From NCBI GenBank assembly GCA_001771815.1, contig MEPU01000004.1, positions 124,001 through 188,000 on the forward strand: 64,000 bases of DNA. Reading direction: 5' to 3'. The notes beneath the pieces were generated by a model. That model had not been told where the DNA came from and ran no database searches. It saw only the letters and a program-made list of their open reading frames with translations. The position numbers and the translations under genes are program-made. Below, one piece after another: positions 5,053 to 13,526 of the stretch. Position 1 is the first letter of the stretch; the number at the start of each line of letters is the position of its first letter. This stretch comes from Bdellovibrionales bacterium RIFCSPHIGHO2_01_FULL_40_29. GTDB lineage: Bacteria; Bdellovibrionota; Bdellovibrionia; Bdellovibrionales; Bdellovibrionaceae.

Positions 5053-7140
5053 TTACTGAATTGAAACCACAACTGCAAAGGGCTGCTTTCCACTTTTCCC
5101 CATTGGCACATTCACACCTGTGACATTAATTGTAACTGCAGCACCCGCTTCGATATCGGATTGAGCAAACACATGGTTATTGATCTGATCATTTGAGCTC
5201 AATGTTTTATTTGGCAAGACAACAGACATATCCAAGTCATTCACCAAAGCTTTAGCCGCATTCAACGATCCCGGAGCATCTGTCCAAACCAAATTGACCA
5301 CCAAGCGGCCAGCTTTTGATGCAGTCACTGTTTTTGAAAAAGTCTCTCCTGTCGCCACCCCTGTTCGGTTATCAGCCATAAAAATCACAGCTTCCGTACC
5401 CATAATTTGCGCCACATTCACACGACCATAACCCTCATCATTATTTGGACGAAGTGTCAGAATCTCTTGCCCCTGGCTAGCGCCACCTTGACCATATTGT
5501 CCTGGAAACATCTCCGTCGCTGTCTGTAACACATAGGCTTTTACCAAAGCTGCTGATGGATTTGGAACCAATTTAGCCATCAACACCTGGCGAGCAATTG
5601 TCGCAGCACCTGCAACTAAAGGTGCTGACATGGATGTTCCACCTGACCAAACATAATTTGGATTGTACTCACCCCAAAGAACATTAGCCCCTGGCTGTTG
5701 AGATTTTACTGATAGAATATTTGTTCCTGGCGCAACAACATCAGGCTTAATGCGTCCATCAGCCGTTGGACCACGTGAACTAAACATAGCGATTCCGTCT
5801 TGATGGTCAGAAATTGTCGATAACGTAATCGGAGGCACTGGCCAATTATCTTTTGCTGAGCCCAATTCTCCAATTTTCTTTTGAATACCACCAGTTGTTG
5901 TGACGTTTTCACTGGCGCCAACCGTCAGAGCATTTTTTGCAGTTCCAGGAGTTCCCACTGAATTGGGATCAATACGACCATCACGGTTTTTATCCACACC
6001 ACTATTACCAGCAGCAAAGATAATCAAAAGATCTTCTTTATCAAACATCACCTGATCAACAGTGGCTGCCATTTTTTCATAAGCCCCAAAATTAGCGGCA
6101 GCTCCCCATGAATTGGTATGAACGCGTGCCCCATCGGCATACGCCTGGCTAAACATTTTTCCAAGATCAGATGGCACTGAAAGATTATTTAAAATTGGTG
6201 ACCACATCCCCTGAGCAACCATTCCCGCGGCGTAAGCCCCACCTTTAAGACGTCCAGCCGAAGCTGTTCCGCGACCAAGCACAGATCCCGCAACATGCGT
6301 TCCATGCCCCATTGGATCCGCCCATGTTTTGCCAAACATTCCGACTGCATAACCGGACTTCACAGCACTCGCAAAGTCCTGGTGAATCGCTTGAGTATTT
6401 CCAGAATCCAAACCCGTGTCTGCCATACCTACAACTTGATTTTGTCCCAGAAAATTTTGGGTCCATGCAGATTCAAAATTCATCACACGAGTTCCTGATT
6501 CAGAACCATTGATATCAGAATAATCTCCAGCCGCAAAACCGCGAACGATATCACTTTCCTGAAATTTATAATGCAAAGGTTCGATAACATGAAATGGCTG
6601 CACATGCTCCACACCAGAAATCGTCGCAGCTACTGCGATTTGACTGCGCTTCAACGTTGCCACAATCGCCGTTCCCTGAGCATTCTGAACTAAGATATTC
6701 TTTTGCTTCAACTCGCTGACAACACGGTCAAGATCTGAATTCTGAAATAAACTCAACAACACCGTTTGCACATGATCTGAAGTCACTTTAGCCAAAGATC
6801 CCAAATCCACTGAAATTTTATACTCAGATCGAAATGGTAGAATCGTTTGAATTTCAGAAAGGTTCAACGCCGCGATCAATCGAGCCGAACCACCAACAAC
6901 CAAAGTATCTTCAGGAAGATATGAAAACACTTTTAAGCCCAATTGCTTTAATGCTTTTTTATTTTTTTCAGTCACATGATTTTTAAATTGAATCATCCAT
7001 TCTGACTGATTTGAAGATGGGTCAACCGATGCGGAAATCATTCCCGCAGTTTGAATGGTTTGTGACCGAAGTTGAATTTGAGTGCCGGCATTGACTGACA
7101 GAGCAACAAGAGTTGTCAGTGCTAAAGCTATTTTAATCAT
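5053..7140 (-). CDS. Secreted subtilisin-family serine protease (S8, KP43-like)
   Basis: Exported serine endopeptidase of 695 residues. MIKIALALTTLVALSVNAGT is a clear Sec signal peptide. The catalytic triad is visible as Asp in ADTGLDSG (about residue 241), His in GHGTHVAGS (279) and Ser in GTSMSAPLVAG (503), with the oxyanion Asn in AAGNSG (379). The N-terminal 200 residues look like a propeptide. The C-terminal segment with WTDAPGSLNAAKALVNDLD resembles the beta-sandwich of KP43-type alkaline proteases. The start at 7140 has GGAGGA six bases upstream; an ATG at 7170 is less likely. In a predator such enzymes could digest prey protein (inference). Confidence 0.94.
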   Translation of the reverse strand: MIKIALALTTLVALSVNAGTQIQLRSQTIQTAGMISASVDPSSNQSEWMIQFKNHVTEKNKKALKQLGLKVFSYLPEDTLVVGGSARLIAALNLSEIQTILPFRSEYKISVDLGSLAKVTSDHVQTVLLSLFQNSDLDRVVSELKQKNILVQNAQGTAIVATLKRSQIAVAATISGVEHVQPFHVIEPLHYKFQESDIVRGFAAGDYSDINGSESGTRVMNFESAWTQNFLGQNQVVGMADTGLDSGNTQAIHQDFASAVKSGYAVGMFGKTWADPMGHGTHVAGSVLGRGTASAGRLKGGAYAAGMVAQGMWSPILNNLSVPSDLGKMFSQAYADGARVHTNSWGAAANFGAYEKMAATVDQVMFDKEDLLIIFAAGNSGVDKNRDGRIDPNSVGTPGTAKNALTVGASENVTTTGGIQKKIGELGSAKDNWPVPPITLSTISDHQDGIAMFSSRGPTADGRIKPDVVAPGTNILSVKSQQPGANVLWGEYNPNYVWSGGTSMSAPLVAGAATIARQVLMAKLVPNPSAALVKAYVLQTATEMFPGQYGQGGASQGQEILTLRPNNDEGYGRVNVAQIMGTEAVIFMADNRTGVATGETFSKTVTASKAGRLVVNLVWTDAPGSLNAAKALVNDLDMSVVLPNKTLSSNDQINNHVFAQSDIEAGAAVTINVTGVNVPMGKSGKQPFAVVVSIQ

Positions 7141-7352
7141 GGTGATTCCTCCAATAGAATTGATGTCCATAAAGACACTAAAAAGTGCACCACGGGATTT
7201 TTTTGATTGGTAGCTCTATTTGAATTTTCACTTGCAAATAACGCTTGTCGCCGTCAGCTCAAAACGATACTGTTGTCTCAATTCAAGAATTTTAATTGGC
7301 GTCCGCGTTGCACTAAATGTCTTTGATCGCCATTTCCATAAGGAGTTCTCGT

Positions 7353-7949
7353 ATGAAATCATTTTTAAGCCTCCCCCTGTTAGCCATAATTGTTACCTCA
7401 TTACTTTTCTCGGGTTGTGGCGAACGTATCACAGACGACAATATCCTGAACCCTGAACAGCACGTCGATCAATTGTCTCTCAGTAAATTTGAAAAAAATG
7501 CCTGCGCCGGAGACCAAAAACTGGTGATCAACCCCGGTGTTACCAATTTAAATTTAAATGATTTTGTAGTGACTGGGAAAGTAAAGGCCGTTGCTTTTCG
7601 CAAGGGCTCTGCGGATTGTGTGGCTCAATTTATTTTCAATGTTAACAAATTCGAAAGCAAACACTCAGCGCAAGTGAATGTCCAACCTGACCCACTCAAT
7701 CCGACTCGTCCAGATGGTGTTTTTAGTTATGAGTTTGTCATTGCAAACACTCAACCTAATACCTGCATTTCAAACGGTTCTGTCTGGCAAGTAATTAGCA
7801 CTCAGGATGTCGAAAATCTTGTGCAAATCTTTTTTAAAAATCTCAGCGAACCAAATCCTAATTCCTACATGTATTTAAGTTCTGATAAATTAATACCAAC
7901 ACAAGCGATTGCCGCGAACATGGGTCTGCTCGCGTACACGTGTCAGTAA
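7353..7949 (+). CDS. Hypothetical lipoprotein
   Basis: 198 residues beginning MKSFLSLPLLAIIVTS, with the lipobox LFSGC at residues 16-20, so a lipid-anchored envelope protein. The start at 7353 follows AAGGAG by seven bases; an upstream in-frame ATG at 7317 lacks a ribosome site and would precede the signal peptide. The mature part is not recognised. It contains cysteines spaced as for disulfides (NACAGDQK, SADCVAQF, NTCISNG, and a final TCQ). Divergent from the subtilase, and its end abuts the recG-end duplication. Confidence 0.8.
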   Translation: MKSFLSLPLLAIIVTSLLFSGCGERITDDNILNPEQHVDQLSLSKFEKNACAGDQKLVINPGVTNLNLNDFVVTGKVKAVAFRKGSADCVAQFIFNVNKFESKHSAQVNVQPDPLNPTRPDGVFSYEFVIANTQPNTCISNGSVWQVISTQDVENLVQIFFKNLSEPNPNSYMYLSSDKLIPTQAIAANMGLLAYTCQ

Positions 7950-7955
7950 AATAAA

Positions 7956-8027
7956 GATGTTTTAACCAATGCCGGCAAGTCCTGCCGGGACATAAGATTT
8001 CAGCAGCTCTTCCCGAAGTAAGGCGTG
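7956..8027. repeat. Left copy of recG 3'-end direct repeat
   Basis: 72 bases matching 11433-11504 with 7 mismatches and no gap. The matched stretch covers the last codons of recG, its stop codon and six bases beyond. The repeat ends abruptly on both sides. It marks the left edge of the accessory island. Confidence 0.9.
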
Positions 8028-8132
8028 TTTCTGAACTATCTTTGCAATGGCCTGTGCTAATCGGACTTGTATTGCGAGTTCTAAAATTTGCGTTTGTATT
8101 GTTGTAGTTACCTTTATCGTCGCCCTTTCCAC
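7962..8132 (-). pseudogene. Truncated recG 3' fragment (about 56 codons open)
   Basis: Read on the minus strand the last 22 codons give HALLREELLKSY, then VPAGLAGIG and stop, nearly the C-terminus of the intact RecG (KSYGPAALAGIG). The frame stays open upstream to a GTG at 8132, reading LELAIQVRLAQAIAKIVQK before the homologous part, which only vaguely resembles the RecG helix VARDQAFRIL. No convincing start or helicase motif remains, so I treat it as a remnant displaced from recG by insertion of the island, not as a functional gene. Confidence 0.7.
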
Positions 8133-8192
8133 CTCTGGAATTCAGAATGATCTTCACGATCTTTGATATAATTACATTATGAAGGAGAATCT

Positions 8193-8423
8193 ATGTTTTA
8201 TAGTATTAATCAAGACCCAAAGAATGGCCTTTACTACGTTTCGCCGACGCCACAGCAATGGCAAAGTCAGTTTTTAATTCAGTGTCATTCAAAAATGGAA
8301 GCCATCGAAGTCATACAGGTGCTTTGCTCCGACCCGATCAATCCGCAGACACCAATCAATCACAAAAACTTTAAGAAATTCGGCTTCCTTGGAGAAACTG
8401 AAGTTTATGTTTTTATTCGATGA
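8193..8423 (+). CDS. Hypothetical small protein
   Basis: 76 residues starting MFYSINQDPKNGLYYVSPTP, preceded by a good ribosome site (GAAGGAGA about four bases before the ATG) and an AT-rich stretch TTGATATAATTACATT that could hold a -10. No signal peptide, transmembrane segment or known motif. The only plus-strand gene inside the accessory island. Not recognised. Confidence 0.6.
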   Translation: MFYSINQDPKNGLYYVSPTPQQWQSQFLIQCHSKMEAIEVIQVLCSDPINPQTPINHKNFKKFGFLGETEVYVFIR

Positions 8424-8613
8424 GATGCCTTTATAGTCTATTAAAAGAAAATATAGTCTTTTAGGAACAAGCTTAAAAAACAATCTGCTCTTTGTAGAAA
8501 TTTATTTCTCTTTTCTCATCTACCAGCTTGACAATTTTTTCCTCTACAGAAGGAGAACTACACGAAAATAATTGTGATAAAAACTGATCTGTTGTGGGGA
8601 TCCTGAATTTTTC

Positions 8614-8635
8614 TGACACGTTTTAGACACGATGG
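8614..8635. repeat. Copy 1 of a 22-base repeated motif in the island
   Basis: TGACACGTTTTAGACACG followed by ATGG. It matches 9229-9250 at 17 of 22 positions (16 of the first 18). It stands immediately downstream of the stop codon of the 8637-9146 gene. Confidence 0.6.
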
Positions 8636-8636
8636 T

Positions 8637-9146
8637 CTATTTGGGAATGCGGTCATAGTCCCATTTCTCAATACCTTTTGAAAAAAAATACTTATCTAAA
8701 TCTGATGCCAGCTTAGGATCAATTAAGCCGAAAGACTTCATTTGTAAGAACCTGTTTTTTTTGAAAAAAATTAGATAATTTACTCGATCACCAATTATTT
8801 TAGATTTGATATATGCCAGAGAAGTAATTTTAATAGCCTCTGCTTCTGTATCTTTAAAATATTCAAAAATGATATCATCTTTAATTATGTAAGATCTGTA
8901 TCTTTCTCTGCGATATGCTATAAAAAGCAATATAACGAACAGACTGACAGCAAAAATACAATACCCTAACACGAGATTCTGCTTTAATGCTTCTGTGGTT
9001 TCGGGACGAGAATAGTAAAAAATTATAAATTTAACTATACCTAAGCCAATCAATAGAAGCATTATTAGCCTTAAATGCTGCATTTTTCCTTTAATGAAAA
9101 AATCTTTCACGTTATTAATCTCGCCGCTTGAATATCTAAAATGCAT
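8637..9146 (-). CDS. Hypothetical inner-membrane protein
   Basis: 169 residues with two predicted transmembrane helices: LRLIMLLLIGLGIVKFIIFY (about residues 26-45) and VLGYCIFAVSLFVILLFIAY (about 59-78). A basic soluble domain follows (RRERYRSYIIKDDIIFEYF). Not recognised. Its start overlaps by 11 bases a short proline-rich frame (9136-9234), and the gene is bracketed by two copies of a repeated 22-base motif, so gene plus fragment looks like a cassette. By eye it is more AT-rich than the housekeeping genes around it. Confidence 0.65.
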   Translation of the reverse strand: MHFRYSSGEINNVKDFFIKGKMQHLRLIMLLLIGLGIVKFIIFYYSRPETTEALKQNLVLGYCIFAVSLFVILLFIAYRRERYRSYIIKDDIIFEYFKDTEAEAIKITSLAYIKSKIIGDRVNYLIFFKKNRFLQMKSFGLIDPKLASDLDKYFFSKGIEKWDYDRIPK

Positions 9147-9234
9147 AACTAACCTTTGTCATTGGAGGTAGCGGAATATCTGGTTGATGCCAATTCGGTG
9201 GTGGCATCGGAGATACTGGCTGTGGAGGTGCCAC
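9136..9234 (-). pseudogene. Proline-rich C-terminal fragment
   Basis: A 32-codon frame from a GTG directly after an in-frame stop, reading VAPPQPVSPMPPPNWHQPDI and continuing to SYAF. It has no ribosome site and no upstream domain. The dense prolines and the overlap with the next gene's start suggest the tail of a larger gene lost by recombination. Confidence 0.35.
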
Positions 9235-9250
9235 GTTTTAGGCACGGAAG
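9229..9250. repeat. Copy 2 of a 22-base repeated motif in the island
   Basis: TGCCACGTTTTAGGCACG followed by GAAG. Counting the preceding G, it forms the dyad GTGCC-8 bases-GGCAC. It overlaps the start of the proline-rich fragment and matches 8614-8635 with five differences. Confidence 0.6.
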
Positions 9251-9256
9251 GTTTTA

Positions 9257-9487
9257 TTAAGGACATTTAACCTCTGACCATCCGCGATCAAATGTGCTAA
9301 TAACCCTATCATCGCCACCAGAAACATTTTTTAATTTAATATCCAATTCTTCTTCTTTACTTTGGATTTTAAAGGTTCCTTTTATCCAAGTGTGCTCCAT
9401 ACAACCACCAACATCAGAACGAACTGGAGCTATGTCACAACCTAAAATAGGTAATGAAAGAAATATCAATAAAACAATTCGCATCAT
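9257..9487 (-). CDS. Small hypothetical lipoprotein
   Basis: 76 residues: MMRIVLLIFLSLPILGC is a short lipoprotein signal with lipobox PILGC (Cys17). The mature part of about 60 residues has cysteines in GGCMEHTW and EVKCP, and a beta-rich look (GTFKIQSKEEELDIKLKNV). The start lies 3 bases after the stop of the 9491-9943 gene, so the two lipoproteins are probably translated from one message. Not recognised. The fold may be a small beta-sandwich or lipocalin-like (guess). Confidence 0.6.
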   Translation of the reverse strand: MMRIVLLIFLSLPILGCDIAPVRSDVGGCMEHTWIKGTFKIQSKEEELDIKLKNVSGGDDRVISTFDRGWSEVKCP

Positions 9488-9490
9488 TTA

Positions 9491-9943
9491 TTACCAGCAA
9501 TTTTTTAACAGCTCTGGGTCTTTTAGCGTTAATTCTCTAACTTTGCCAACGACTACTCTGTTGGAATTTTCTAAATTTTCACCAAAAACTTTTGTTTCGT
9601 TTTCAATCAAGACACTAAGTAACTTATTGTTGGCCGATGAATCACAACCCATCTTGCGAGAAAAGTTATCAAAATCATTATTACGCTCTTTATTTTTGAT
9701 GGCCCGAACTACTCCAGGCTTAAATCGGGCTAATTCCACGCCAATCTCAATTCTTAGTGGTTCGATAGACGTACACGGACTTATCTGAAAAATTGACCCC
9801 AAAAAACTGTACGGTAATGGAAGCAAAAAATCGGCATTTTCACACGCAGATTTGTTAGAAGCGAGATGCGCGCAACTCGTAATACAACAAGCTGCTAATG
9901 CTATAAAAAGATGTTTTATTGTCTTAAAATACTTAATACTCAT
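9491..9943 (-). CDS. Hypothetical lipoprotein
   Basis: 150 residues starting MSIKYFKTIKHLFIALAACC, with lipobox ITSC (Cys22 or nearby), followed by a soluble part containing cysteines at ACENAD, SPCTSIE, GCDSS and a C-terminal NCW. The ATG at 9943 follows AGGTAG; a GTG one codon earlier is also possible. The gene is first of a pair with the small lipoprotein downstream. Not recognised. Its codon use and AT content match the island, not the flanks (by eye). Confidence 0.6.
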   Translation of the reverse strand: MSIKYFKTIKHLFIALAACCITSCAHLASNKSACENADFLLPLPYSFLGSIFQISPCTSIEPLRIEIGVELARFKPGVVRAIKNKERNNDFDNFSRKMGCDSSANNKLLSVLIENETKVFGENLENSNRVVVGKVRELTLKDPELLKNCW

Positions 9944-10006
9944 CACACTACCTGCCTAAGTTGGTGCTCATCGTCACAAGCAGCATCACATTCAAAACTT
10001 ACATAG

Positions 10007-10216
10007 TTAGTAGTCGCATTTTTCTATCTTACCAATCAAGACAGCATGTTCCATTTTTCGGTTGGCCTTATCAATAGACTTTACACTTACGCAAACTGTG
10101 TACTCTCTGCATCGGCAGTCTGTGCAAACAAGACTACCTGGAGCTGCTTGATCCTCATCTATAAACAGAGTGTCCGCAACTCCACAGTGACATATAAAAT
10201 TAATTGGTATTTTCAT
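10007..10216 (-). CDS. Small zinc-ribbon-like protein
   Basis: 69 residues. CHCG (residues 9-12) and CTDCRC (about 31-36) give four well-placed cysteines plus extras, suggesting a zinc ribbon or rubredoxin-like knuckle. The rest (SVKSIDKANRKMEHAVLIG) looks like a short helix or strand. An AGAAGGAGAG ribosome site stands just before the ATG, the strongest in the island. Cytoplasmic by absence of a signal. Function unknown. Confidence 0.6.
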   Translation of the reverse strand: MKIPINFICHCGVADTLFIDEDQAAPGSLVCTDCRCREYTVCVSVKSIDKANRKMEHAVLIGKIEKCDY

Positions 10217-10255
10217 TGTGCTCTCCTTCTATGCTTAAATTATCTTTGAAAAATC

Positions 10256-10657
10256 TCATTTATTTTTTTCTGATACAATCTGATCACCAGTGAAAATATA
10301 GGTATTTATGATGCTTTTGCTAAATAATTTATAATGCATACCATCTGAATCATATTCAAAAGAGACGTTATTTTCATTTTTTAAGTCAATTTTATTATAA
10401 TTTGGAATATAGCCACATTGATGACTGCTCTTTAATACTATTAAGCCTTCATCGCTCAAAGGATATCTACCGCAAGTCTGATAAAAAAATTTAAGAGCTC
10501 TATTTATTTGATATGCACTATTCTTTATCAGATAGAAATCAGTATCATTTTTGTGGGCTGTATTAACCGCATAATAAATAAGCCCAACAAGAAGAGCTAA
10601 AATAATTGACAGTATTATTAATATTCTCATCAACAACCGTTTTTTACTATTTTCCAT
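10256..10657 (-). CDS. GspG-like pseudopilin-domain protein (orphan, copy 1)
   Basis: 133 residues with one N-terminal transmembrane helix (ILIILSIILALLVGLIYYAV). The segment INRALKFFYQTCGRYPLSDE followed by GL is the hallmark of the C-terminal domain of type II secretion major pseudopilin GspG (ALxxYxxxxGRYPTxxxGL). A later FEYDSDGMHYKLFS matches the Y-x-S-DG-xx-y end of that domain. The prepilin peptidase motif (G followed by FTLxE) is absent, so it is unlikely to be processed as a pilin. Paralog of the gene at 10730-11128. Role unknown. Confidence 0.6.
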   Translation of the reverse strand: MENSKKRLLMRILIILSIILALLVGLIYYAVNTAHKNDTDFYLIKNSAYQINRALKFFYQTCGRYPLSDEGLIVLKSSHQCGYIPNYNKIDLKNENNVSFEYDSDGMHYKLFSKSIINTYIFTGDQIVSEKNK

Positions 10658-10729
10658 AATAAATTCTCACACATTGTCACCAATAATTACTAAACAGTCG
10701 CCAAATCTTTTATGCCGCAAGAAGAAATT

Positions 10730-11128
10730 TTAGTCTTCTTGCCGTTGGAATTGCGCATTGTCAAAATAACTTTCGGTAGTGATTCTGTCTCTAAACCTAC
10801 CAACGGATTTAAGCTTAAATGTTTTTCCATCGGACTCGTAGACAAACTTGTTACCATATCCATTTTGGAATGAATCACTTGAATCGATAATTTTGGACGA
10901 GTAACATTCCGTTCCAATCTTAAGTATTATTAATCCTTCTTCTGTAGTTGGAAACCTTTCACAAAATTTATAAAAATCTTGCAATGCAAATAAAATTTTA
11001 CTTCTTCCCTTATGACTTGTTCTCATATCGGAATGCTGAATGAACAACACCAATTCAATTGCAATATATATAACGACAACAAAGGCTATCAATTTCCATA
11101 TTTTTTGAAACGCTTTATTTACCACCAT
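10730..11128 (-). CDS. GspG-like pseudopilin-domain protein (orphan, copy 2)
   Basis: 132 residues with an N-terminal membrane helix (LIAFVVVIYIAIELVLF) and the same GspG-type signature as its neighbour: ALQDFYKFCERFPTTEEGL, then GYGNKFVYESDGKTFKLKS. Cysteines in YKFCERFP and GTECYSS align with those of copy 1 (YQTCGRYP, SHQCG), so the pair may be disulfide-bonded periplasmic domains. No prepilin cleavage motif. AAGGATCTATT precedes the ATG. Its start overlaps a 40-codon frame at 11115-11237. Confidence 0.6.
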   Translation of the reverse strand: MVVNKAFQKIWKLIAFVVVIYIAIELVLFIQHSDMRTSHKGRSKILFALQDFYKFCERFPTTEEGLIILKIGTECYSSKIIDSSDSFQNGYGNKFVYESDGKTFKLKSVGRFRDRITTESYFDNAQFQRQED

Positions 11129-11237
11129 AATAGATCCTTAAAAATCGTCTGATGTTTCTATCAGCCCAGTTGTCCGCGGTGTCGCCAACATGCGTCTCTT
11201 CGATTTCTGAGAAAAATGTAGCTGCTCGATTAGACAT
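11115..11237 (-). CDS. Possible 40-residue peptide or gene remnant
   Basis: A frame beginning MSNRAATFFSEIEETHVGDT and ending RRFLRIYYGGK, whose stop lies 14 bases inside the following GspG-like gene. Composition looks protein-like but there is no ribosome site, and an in-frame stop lies six codons upstream of the ATG. It may be the tail of a lost gene. Low confidence. Confidence 0.25.
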   Translation of the reverse strand: MSNRAATFFSEIEETHVGDTADNWADRNIRRFLRIYYGGK

Positions 11238-11438
11238 GTGGTGTATACAGATGAATCAATTCTACCTGTTCAATTTGCGGTGCTTTTTCAAGGCTTAAGT
11301 TTTTTCCCATAGGTTATTATCGGATACAGACAGAAAAAATAAAGTTTGTTACTAAATTTAGCACAACAAACCAAGACGTTCGCCGCGTTTTAAAAAATCG
11401 GCGCATCCATTACTTAAGTAGTTTTCAAACGAGATGTT
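11129..11438. other. Intergenic right end of the island
   Basis: About 300 bases with no convincing gene besides the weak 40-codon frame above and a 26-codon minus-strand frame (11230-11310) without a ribosome site. The right recG repeat begins at 11433. No integrase, tRNA or clear terminator was seen. Confidence 0.4.
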
Positions 11439-11504
11439 TTAACCAATACCGGCAAGTGCTGCTGGGCCGTAAGATTTCAGTAGCTCTTCCCGAAGTAAGG
11501 CATG
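11433..11504. repeat. Right copy of recG 3'-end direct repeat (within recG)
   Basis: The intact counterpart of 7956-8027, covering the last 22 codons and stop of recG plus six downstream bases. Seven mismatches separate the two copies, several of which change amino acids (Gly to Val, Ala to Gly). Confidence 0.9.
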
Positions 11505-13526
11505 CTCTTTCTTAAGAAGCTTGGGGTCTGCAGCCAAGATTCGGAAGGCCTGATCTCTGGCAACCTTCAGCAAGTCAAAATCGCGTACTAAATTGGCCAT
11601 CTTAAACCCCGTCAAACCTGACTGTCTGGCCCCCATAAATTCACCGGGCCCACGGATCTGCAAATCAAATTCAGCCACTTTGAAACCATCATTTGTCTTT
11701 TCCATAAATTCAACGCGCTCACGGGTTTCTTGCGAGACCGCGTAACCCATGATCATCACGCAAAAACTTTTATGCATCCCCCGACCAACACGCCCTCGCA
11801 ACTGATGCAACTGCGACAATCCAAATCGTTCGGCATGCTCAATAATCATAACAGTGGCATTAGGAACATCGACTCCGACCTCGATCACAGTTGTTGAAAT
11901 CAGCGCATCGATATCATGATTTCGAAATTGCATCATGATATCGTCTTTTTCTTGAGACTTCATTTTTCCGTGCAAAAGCCCAAATCGCACTTTTGGAAAT
12001 TCGCTCTTAAGTTTTTCAAACTCGTCTGTTGCATTTTTTAAATCTATTTTTTCACTTTCCTCTACTAGGGGATAGACCACATAAGCCTGTCGCCCTTTGG
12101 TCAGATGCTCGACCATAAAATCTATAGCCTGACGTCGCTTTGACTCTGTAATCACGCGTGTTTGTATCGGCGTTCGCCCCACAGGCATCTCGTCGATAAT
12201 GGAAACATCCAGATCTCCATAGACTGTCATGGCCAATGTTCGTGGGATTGGCGTTGCTGTCATGATCAAAAAATGAGGCGACACCCCTTTATTCTTAAGC
12301 AGTCCTCGCTGAGCCACACCAAACCGATGCTGCTCATCAATAATAACTAAACCTAAACTTTTAAACTGCACCCAATCTTCAATCAAGGCATGAGTGCCCA
12401 TTAAAAAATGAGTCTCGCCAGATATAAGACGTTCTAAAATTTCTTTGCGCTCTTTTGCCTTTGTTTTACCAGTCAATAAATCGCATTTAATCCCTAACGG
12501 CAGTAAAATATTTTGGGTATTTCGAAAATGCTGTTCAGCTAAAATTTCTGTTGGCGCCATCAGACAAACCTGAAATCCAGATTCAATCGCCTTCAGGGCA
12601 GCCATAAAGCTAACGATGGTTTTGCCTGAACCCACATCCCCCTGCACCAATCGATTCATCGGCTTTCCAGATTCCAAATCAATTTTTATTTCTTGAAATG
12701 ATTTCAGTTGGGCGCCCGTCAGAGCAAACGGCAGCTGTAACTTCATTTTTTGAATAAGCAGCTCTGGATTAGAAAATGAAAAACCTTTTTCACTCTTCAA
12801 ACCCGAACGCTTTGAAGCCAGATATATTTCTAACCAAAAAAATTCTTCAAAAATAAGACGTCGATGAGCTTCTGATTTAAATTCATTATAAAGATTTCCC
12901 AAATCAGGTTCGGGGTGATGTATTTTTGTGATCGCATCTCGGTAAGGAATCAGGCCCAATTCCTTGACAATAGGATCTGATAATTTCTCTAATGGCCACT
13001 CGCTAATTTGCGCCAAAGCCGTCATAACAAGCTGATTCATTTTAGCAGAGCTCAGCCCTTCAATTTCAACATAAATTGGAATCAATGCATCTGAAAAATC
13101 CTCATCCGGCTCAATGTCTTTAATATCGGGATGATGAAACTCAATCTTATTACGATAGTTCGTCACCTTCCCCACGATACGCACTTCCGCACCTGGTTTA
13201 AAGCGATCAAAATAACCGCGATAGGGAACTCGAAAATATTTGCACCGAATTTGGCCGGAGGAATCGCGCACAATCACATCATAGATTTTTCGCGATGATT
13301 TTCCCATGTTGAATGAGGCCACTGAGACTACCGTTGCTTTCAGACTGACAACGTCATCAGGCCGAAGACTTGCTATATTTCGAGCTGCCCTGCGATCTTC
13401 ATAGGCCCGAGGATAATTTTGAATCAAGTCTTGAATTGTTTTAATCCCATTTCGAGAAAACAAGGAGCCGAGCTTCGGGCCAACTCCTTTGAGATATTGA
13501 ATGTCAGTGTCTAGACGAAGGGCCAT
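11439..13526 (-). CDS. recG: ATP-dependent DNA helicase RecG
   Basis: Superfamily 2 helicase that remodels stalled forks and branch-migrates Holliday junctions. 695 residues, full length. An N-terminal wedge/OB domain (about residues 1-230, with LKGVGPKLGSLF at the start) is followed by Walker A GDVGSGKT, the helicase box DEQHRFG, TATPIPRTLA, and motif VI QLRGRVGRG. The C-terminal end corresponds to the repeat that bounds the island, so the gene appears to have served as an insertion target. Divergent from the HD-GYP gene at 13589. Confidence 0.97.
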   Translation of the reverse strand: MALRLDTDIQYLKGVGPKLGSLFSRNGIKTIQDLIQNYPRAYEDRRAARNIASLRPDDVVSLKATVVSVASFNMGKSSRKIYDVIVRDSSGQIRCKYFRVPYRGYFDRFKPGAEVRIVGKVTNYRNKIEFHHPDIKDIEPDEDFSDALIPIYVEIEGLSSAKMNQLVMTALAQISEWPLEKLSDPIVKELGLIPYRDAITKIHHPEPDLGNLYNEFKSEAHRRLIFEEFFWLEIYLASKRSGLKSEKGFSFSNPELLIQKMKLQLPFALTGAQLKSFQEIKIDLESGKPMNRLVQGDVGSGKTIVSFMAALKAIESGFQVCLMAPTEILAEQHFRNTQNILLPLGIKCDLLTGKTKAKERKEILERLISGETHFLMGTHALIEDWVQFKSLGLVIIDEQHRFGVAQRGLLKNKGVSPHFLIMTATPIPRTLAMTVYGDLDVSIIDEMPVGRTPIQTRVITESKRRQAIDFMVEHLTKGRQAYVVYPLVEESEKIDLKNATDEFEKLKSEFPKVRFGLLHGKMKSQEKDDIMMQFRNHDIDALISTTVIEVGVDVPNATVMIIEHAERFGLSQLHQLRGRVGRGMHKSFCVMIMGYAVSQETRERVEFMEKTNDGFKVAEFDLQIRGPGEFMGARQSGLTGFKMANLVRDFDLLKVARDQAFRILAADPKLLKKEHALLREELLKSYGPAALAGIG

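Follow-up and report, generated by a model that had tools for sequence, protein, structure and literature searches.

The final codons of recG are present twice in the DNA studied here, a 64,000-nucleotide stretch (the window) of a Bdellovibrionales genome, and a cluster of small, AT-rich genes separates the two copies. How did a second end of a conserved gene come to lie downstream of the first, and is it the trace of an element that integrates at this site, as the initial annotation proposed? The answer depends on three features.

11439 to 13526, minus strand: recG, intact, 695 aa, now ending in copy R (tblastn against relatives; 71-80% identical within the genus).
11432 to 11504, minus strand: copy R, the functional recG 3' end with its stop codon and 7 bp beyond (repeat D1).
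7955 to 8027, minus strand: copy T, regarded as the displaced recG 3' end, with five synonymous and two non-synonymous differences from R (repeat comparison).

A match of 72 bases with 7 mismatches (7956-8027 and 11433-11504) had been claimed, and our analysis confirmed it as a direct repeat of 73 nt between 7955-8027 and 11432-11504, again with 7 mismatches (90%). The repeat takes in the final 21 codons of recG together with the stop codon and runs 7 bp past it. A whole-genome search located this region in just two places, with E = 2.8e-22 for the second, and an identical run of 20 bp, GCCTTACTTCGGGAAGAGCT, lies near the repeat 5' end. The edges are fairly sharp. No similarity was seen past 7954/11431, the DNA downstream of the two recG ends being unrelated from 8 bp past the stop codon. 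Beyond 8027 the similarity is weak and depends on scoring (P = 0.02 to 0.26); a gapped extension to about 8073 appeared under one scoring scheme and was absent under two others. A longer repeat was consequently set aside, and we put its length at about 73 bp. We also considered a terminator role for copy T and rejected it, as no fold was more stable than those of shuffled sequences.

The DNA between the two copies differs clearly from its surroundings.

8028 to 11431, no strand assigned: AT-rich accessory insert (GC contrast with the window; missing at the same place in relatives).

This insert of 3.4 kb has a GC content of 34.6%, compared with a mean of 40.7% (sd 1.0, minimum 38.8%) for equal-sized 2750-bp pieces of the rest of the window, and lies 6 sd below it. 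Its composition is foreign-looking. The GC profile proposed as a check of the initial annotation thus bears out the description of AT-rich DNA holding small genes only (34.6% versus 40.7 ± 1.0%): it holds seven small ORFs, six of them read from the minus strand and the other from the plus strand, none of which matched a protein family above its curated cut-off. The statement that the island has no integrase also holds, no recombinase being found among the ORFs of 7171-11438.

10730 to 11128, minus strand: 132-aa membrane-anchored protein with a weak region like GspG, the major pseudopilin (PF08334, E = 7e-4, 20.1 bits, cut-off 21).
10256 to 10657, minus strand: 133-aa membrane-anchored protein with a weak GspG-like region (PF08334, E = 0.02; TIGR01710, E = 5e-4, far under cut-off).
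10007 to 10216, minus strand: 69-aa ORF with cysteine pairs, zinc-ribbon-like by eye (sequence only; no family match).
9491 to 9946, minus strand: 151-aa lipoprotein-like ORF of a family sporadic among relatives (homologues in G004, G064, G071 and G077 only).
9257 to 9487, minus strand: 76-aa lipoprotein-like ORF, its start nearly touching the end of 9491-9946 (ORF list; no family match).
8637 to 9146, minus strand: 169-aa ORF containing two hydrophobic segments (144 genomes of the class searched, none with a convincing homologue).
8193 to 8423, plus strand: 76-aa ORF with a good ribosome-binding site (ORF list; no family match).

The two GspG-like ORFs are divergent paralogues (30% identical) with hydrophobic N-termini. 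No obvious prepilin motif was found in them by eye, and the structure model of one was too poor for use (mean pLDDT 49.9). For the cargo ORFs other than this pair and 9491-9946, the searches made returned no convincing relatives, and the cargo proteins tried had none in whichever of the viral-contig, plasmid and phage collections each was run against. The homologue of 9491-9946 in G004 (L073, 7240-7616) is broken by a stop or frameshift. The one in G064 belongs to a row of small membrane ORFs that follows an Rhs/YD-repeat protein and two orphan Rhs 3' ends (L170, 1-4626); by eye this array looks like a typical Rhs displacement array, and Pfam gave no match on the pieces of it that were scanned. 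On the minus strand of the insert, a 17-bp motif, GTGNCTAAAACGTGNCA, occurs at 8614-8630 and 9229-9245, at a short and similar distance past the stop codons of two island ORFs. These are its two copies in the genome, with no others; it is absent from 13 congeners, and matches in viral contigs were taken as chance. An integron or CALIN was rejected, GTTRRRY sites being at chance level (7 seen versus 6.7 expected) in the region round copy T and the 8193 ORF (L001, about 6440-9680 of the window).

Comparison with relatives indicates what the site looked like before the acquisition.

5053 to 7170, minus strand: subtilase gene (PF00082), the ancestral downstream neighbour of recG, which it adjoins in G010, G003, G007, G016 and G024.
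7353 to 7949, plus strand: lineage-specific lipoprotein gene, absent from the empty sites too (143 other genomes of the class gave no match).

In three congeners (G010, G003 and G007) the subtilase gene lies within about 110-275 bp after recG, and in two genomes of other genera (G016 and G024) the two genes also adjoin directly. All five share the order recG, subtilase, carD, a glutamyl/glutaminyl-type tRNA synthetase gene and cysS. This adjacency confirms that the DNA was inserted relative to relatives. The predicted form of the empty site, with the 7353 lipoprotein next after recG, was found in no genome searched; relatives have recG followed by subtilase instead. The extent given for the island therefore needs amending: the 3.4-kb insert is real, but the lineage-specific DNA is wider, as the lipoprotein gene is missing from empty sites as well. 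This gene may be a separate, earlier acquisition, since its composition is host-like and it lies outside the repeat. The insert, with its atypical composition and its absence from a conserved site in relatives, qualifies as a horizontally acquired island.

In six other genomes the gap between recG and subtilase or carD is occupied by unrelated content: G002 and G008 have a photolyase, G018 an RCC1-repeat protein, G004 an aquaporin, G019 cupin and dioxygenase-like ORFs and G014 several ORFs, the names being given by eye from the sequences. The photolyase-like genes in the recG-subtilase gap of G002 and G008 are found at L074 and L076, respectively. That the gap tolerates insertions can be explained by its position between distinct genes of a conserved housekeeping cluster. 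The other inserts are not accompanied by a recG duplication, and when the 66 genomes of the family were searched with the C-terminal peptide of recG, a second copy turned up in this genome alone and in none of the 65 others. Judged by these comparisons, the gap is a flexible one rather than a recurrent att site, since a second recG end is present in one of 66 family genomes and unrelated genes occupy the gap elsewhere.

Where the two ends come from can be read from their divergence. Copy T has 9 differences from copy R over the last 69 bases but 22-31 from the corresponding recG ends in eight congeners; the nearest recG among the genomes compared is 80% identical in protein. Copy T thus comes from this lineage, being far closer to R than to any of the eight. 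T and R show seven differences in their final 22 codons (counting the stop), and five of these are synonymous, compared with an expected fraction of 0.28-0.36 (P = 0.02-0.06), a marginal test that rests on 7 sites. This bias is what one would expect of two recG ends in use in related strains, and it suggests that T and R drifted apart while each still served as a functional end of the gene in one of two such strains. The two non-synonymous changes place V and G in T where the recG of relatives has a conserved G and A, which fits T decaying a little once displaced.

We favour, with about an even chance of its being right, the reading that DNA of a related strain recombined through recG, brought its own end with AT-rich cargo and displaced the resident end. 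The repeat, the composition, the empty sites, the restriction to this lineage and the synonymous pattern are observations, whereas the origin of the donor, the direction of displacement and the mechanism are inferred, as follows. Donor DNA of a closely related strain would have carried its own recG 3' end followed by the AT-rich cargo of small envelope-type genes. After recombination with the resident recG, the working gene would have ended in the incoming copy R, and copy T would be the resident end, pushed 3.4 kb downstream and surviving as a non-coding remnant. The likeliest route would be RecA-type homologous recombination via recG combined with a non-homologous far joint, or a single crossover with a circular molecule, in either case with no dedicated integrase. 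Integration anchored by homology with an illegitimate far joint is documented (PMC3240628), and for Vibrio effector-immunity arrays and Rhs loci it has been proposed that incoming modules displace old gene ends downstream (PMC5361080). The positions of the copies count for displacement: T is the one nearer the subtilase gene, as the ancestral recG end should be, and R is part of the working gene. The presence of unrelated genes in the same gap elsewhere, with no recG duplication, indicates in addition that acquisition here needs no special integrase. Against this account, site-specific integration at the recG end would be expected to give the same anatomy, and no donor or intermediate genome was found among the genomes searched.

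In the rival reading, an integrative element would have attached at the recG 3' end by means of a tyrosine recombinase and put its own copy in place of the gene end, its integrase being since lost or acting in trans. The anatomy is that of the textbook, with the gene intact, the old end displaced and the differences mostly synonymous, and the 20-bp identical run could serve as a core. Elements that supply a replacement end to a protein-coding gene have a precedent in the dusA islands (PMC4482086). The genome encodes five tyrosine recombinases, two of which have the length and look of element integrases (395 and 382 aa, at G000:C5:66142 and G000:C10:25509; L162 and L163); a tRNA-Gly gene lies near the second (L163). 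However, all five are outside the island, the nearest being about 20 kb away and XerC/D-like by length, and in the DNA surrounding four of these genes nothing matches the repeat significantly. Nor does recG behave as a recurrent target, with a second end in 0 of 65 other family genomes; the cargo proteins tried lack homologues in viral contigs, plasmids and phages, and the claim of a site-specific element is further weakened by the other gap inserts, which carry no recG end. We therefore retain from the initial reading the insertion, the foreign composition and the displacement of one recG end out of the gene, but the site-specific element is unproven, for lack of an integrase in the island, of an attachment core, of a second recG end in 65 family genomes and of a mobile relative in the searches made. 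Recombination anchored in recG, with no integrase, explains the same anatomy. An integrative element at the recG end is conceivable but doubtful, and the DNA was probably acquired through recG-anchored recombination, not through a mobile element equipped with an integrase. A narrower version, in which a small integrase-less element is moved in trans by one of the tyrosine recombinases of the genome, with the recG 3' end as attachment site and with GspG-like and lipoprotein cargo drawn partly from a pool also present in the Rhs displacement array of a Bdellovibrio relative, is a long shot.

Two further explanations were weighed. The recG end could have been duplicated in place within this lineage, for example by slippage or by break repair that copied a short stretch; the cargo would then have been gained separately, and T would have decayed since as non-coding DNA. 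The much greater similarity of T to its own recG than to that of any relative agrees with this, as do the two changes that strike conserved residues, but five synonymous differences out of seven argue against it, and the pattern of divergence fits in-place duplication less well than an origin in two strains. We consider it unlikely. Its simplest form, tandem duplication, was set aside as the flanks of the two copies are unrelated, the downstream DNA from 8 bp past the stop codon onwards. The synonymous bias would alternatively be explained if T belonged to a small gene of its own under selection (7962-8132, 56 aa, in the recG frame). The recG frame is indeed open over 59 codons, but stretches that stay open for so long are not rare (about 1 in 10 by rough estimate), no good start signal precedes it and its upstream part has no relatives. 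Such a gene seems hardly credible.

We conclude that the locus represents an ordinary kind of horizontal acquisition, specific to this lineage, with a stranded older recG end, whose displacement through recG-anchored recombination we favour. On a small scale it lets one read how accessory genes come to be added next to conserved ones in predatory bacteria: the gene end left behind records the event and is a hint that the donor was a close relative. A further caution is that a repeat of a gene end is by itself no proof of a site-specific element. Beyond this record and this caution, it is ordinary genome plasticity.

Among known systems, the Vibrio T6SS effector-immunity arrays and the orphaned Rhs 3' ends are alike in that a new 3' end arrives with cargo and the older end is stranded downstream; there the old ends are displaced by homology-facilitated illegitimate recombination (PMC5361080). 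The recG case differs in its housekeeping anchor, in a product that is hardly changed, in being a single event rather than a string of them and in that no toxin gene was identified in the cargo. The dusA-specific islands (PMC4482086) also supply a replacement end of a conserved gene, in their case the dusA 5' end, and leave imperfect direct repeats. They, however, possess an integrase and a 21-bp conserved attachment sequence and are found in many genomes, whereas the recG locus has neither an integrase nor a second case. Finally, the recG-subtilase gap resembles the variable gaps between conserved genes known as flexible chromosomal loci, its content changing from genome to genome; what distinguishes it from an ordinary variable gap is the duplicated recG end, present only in the genome of the window.
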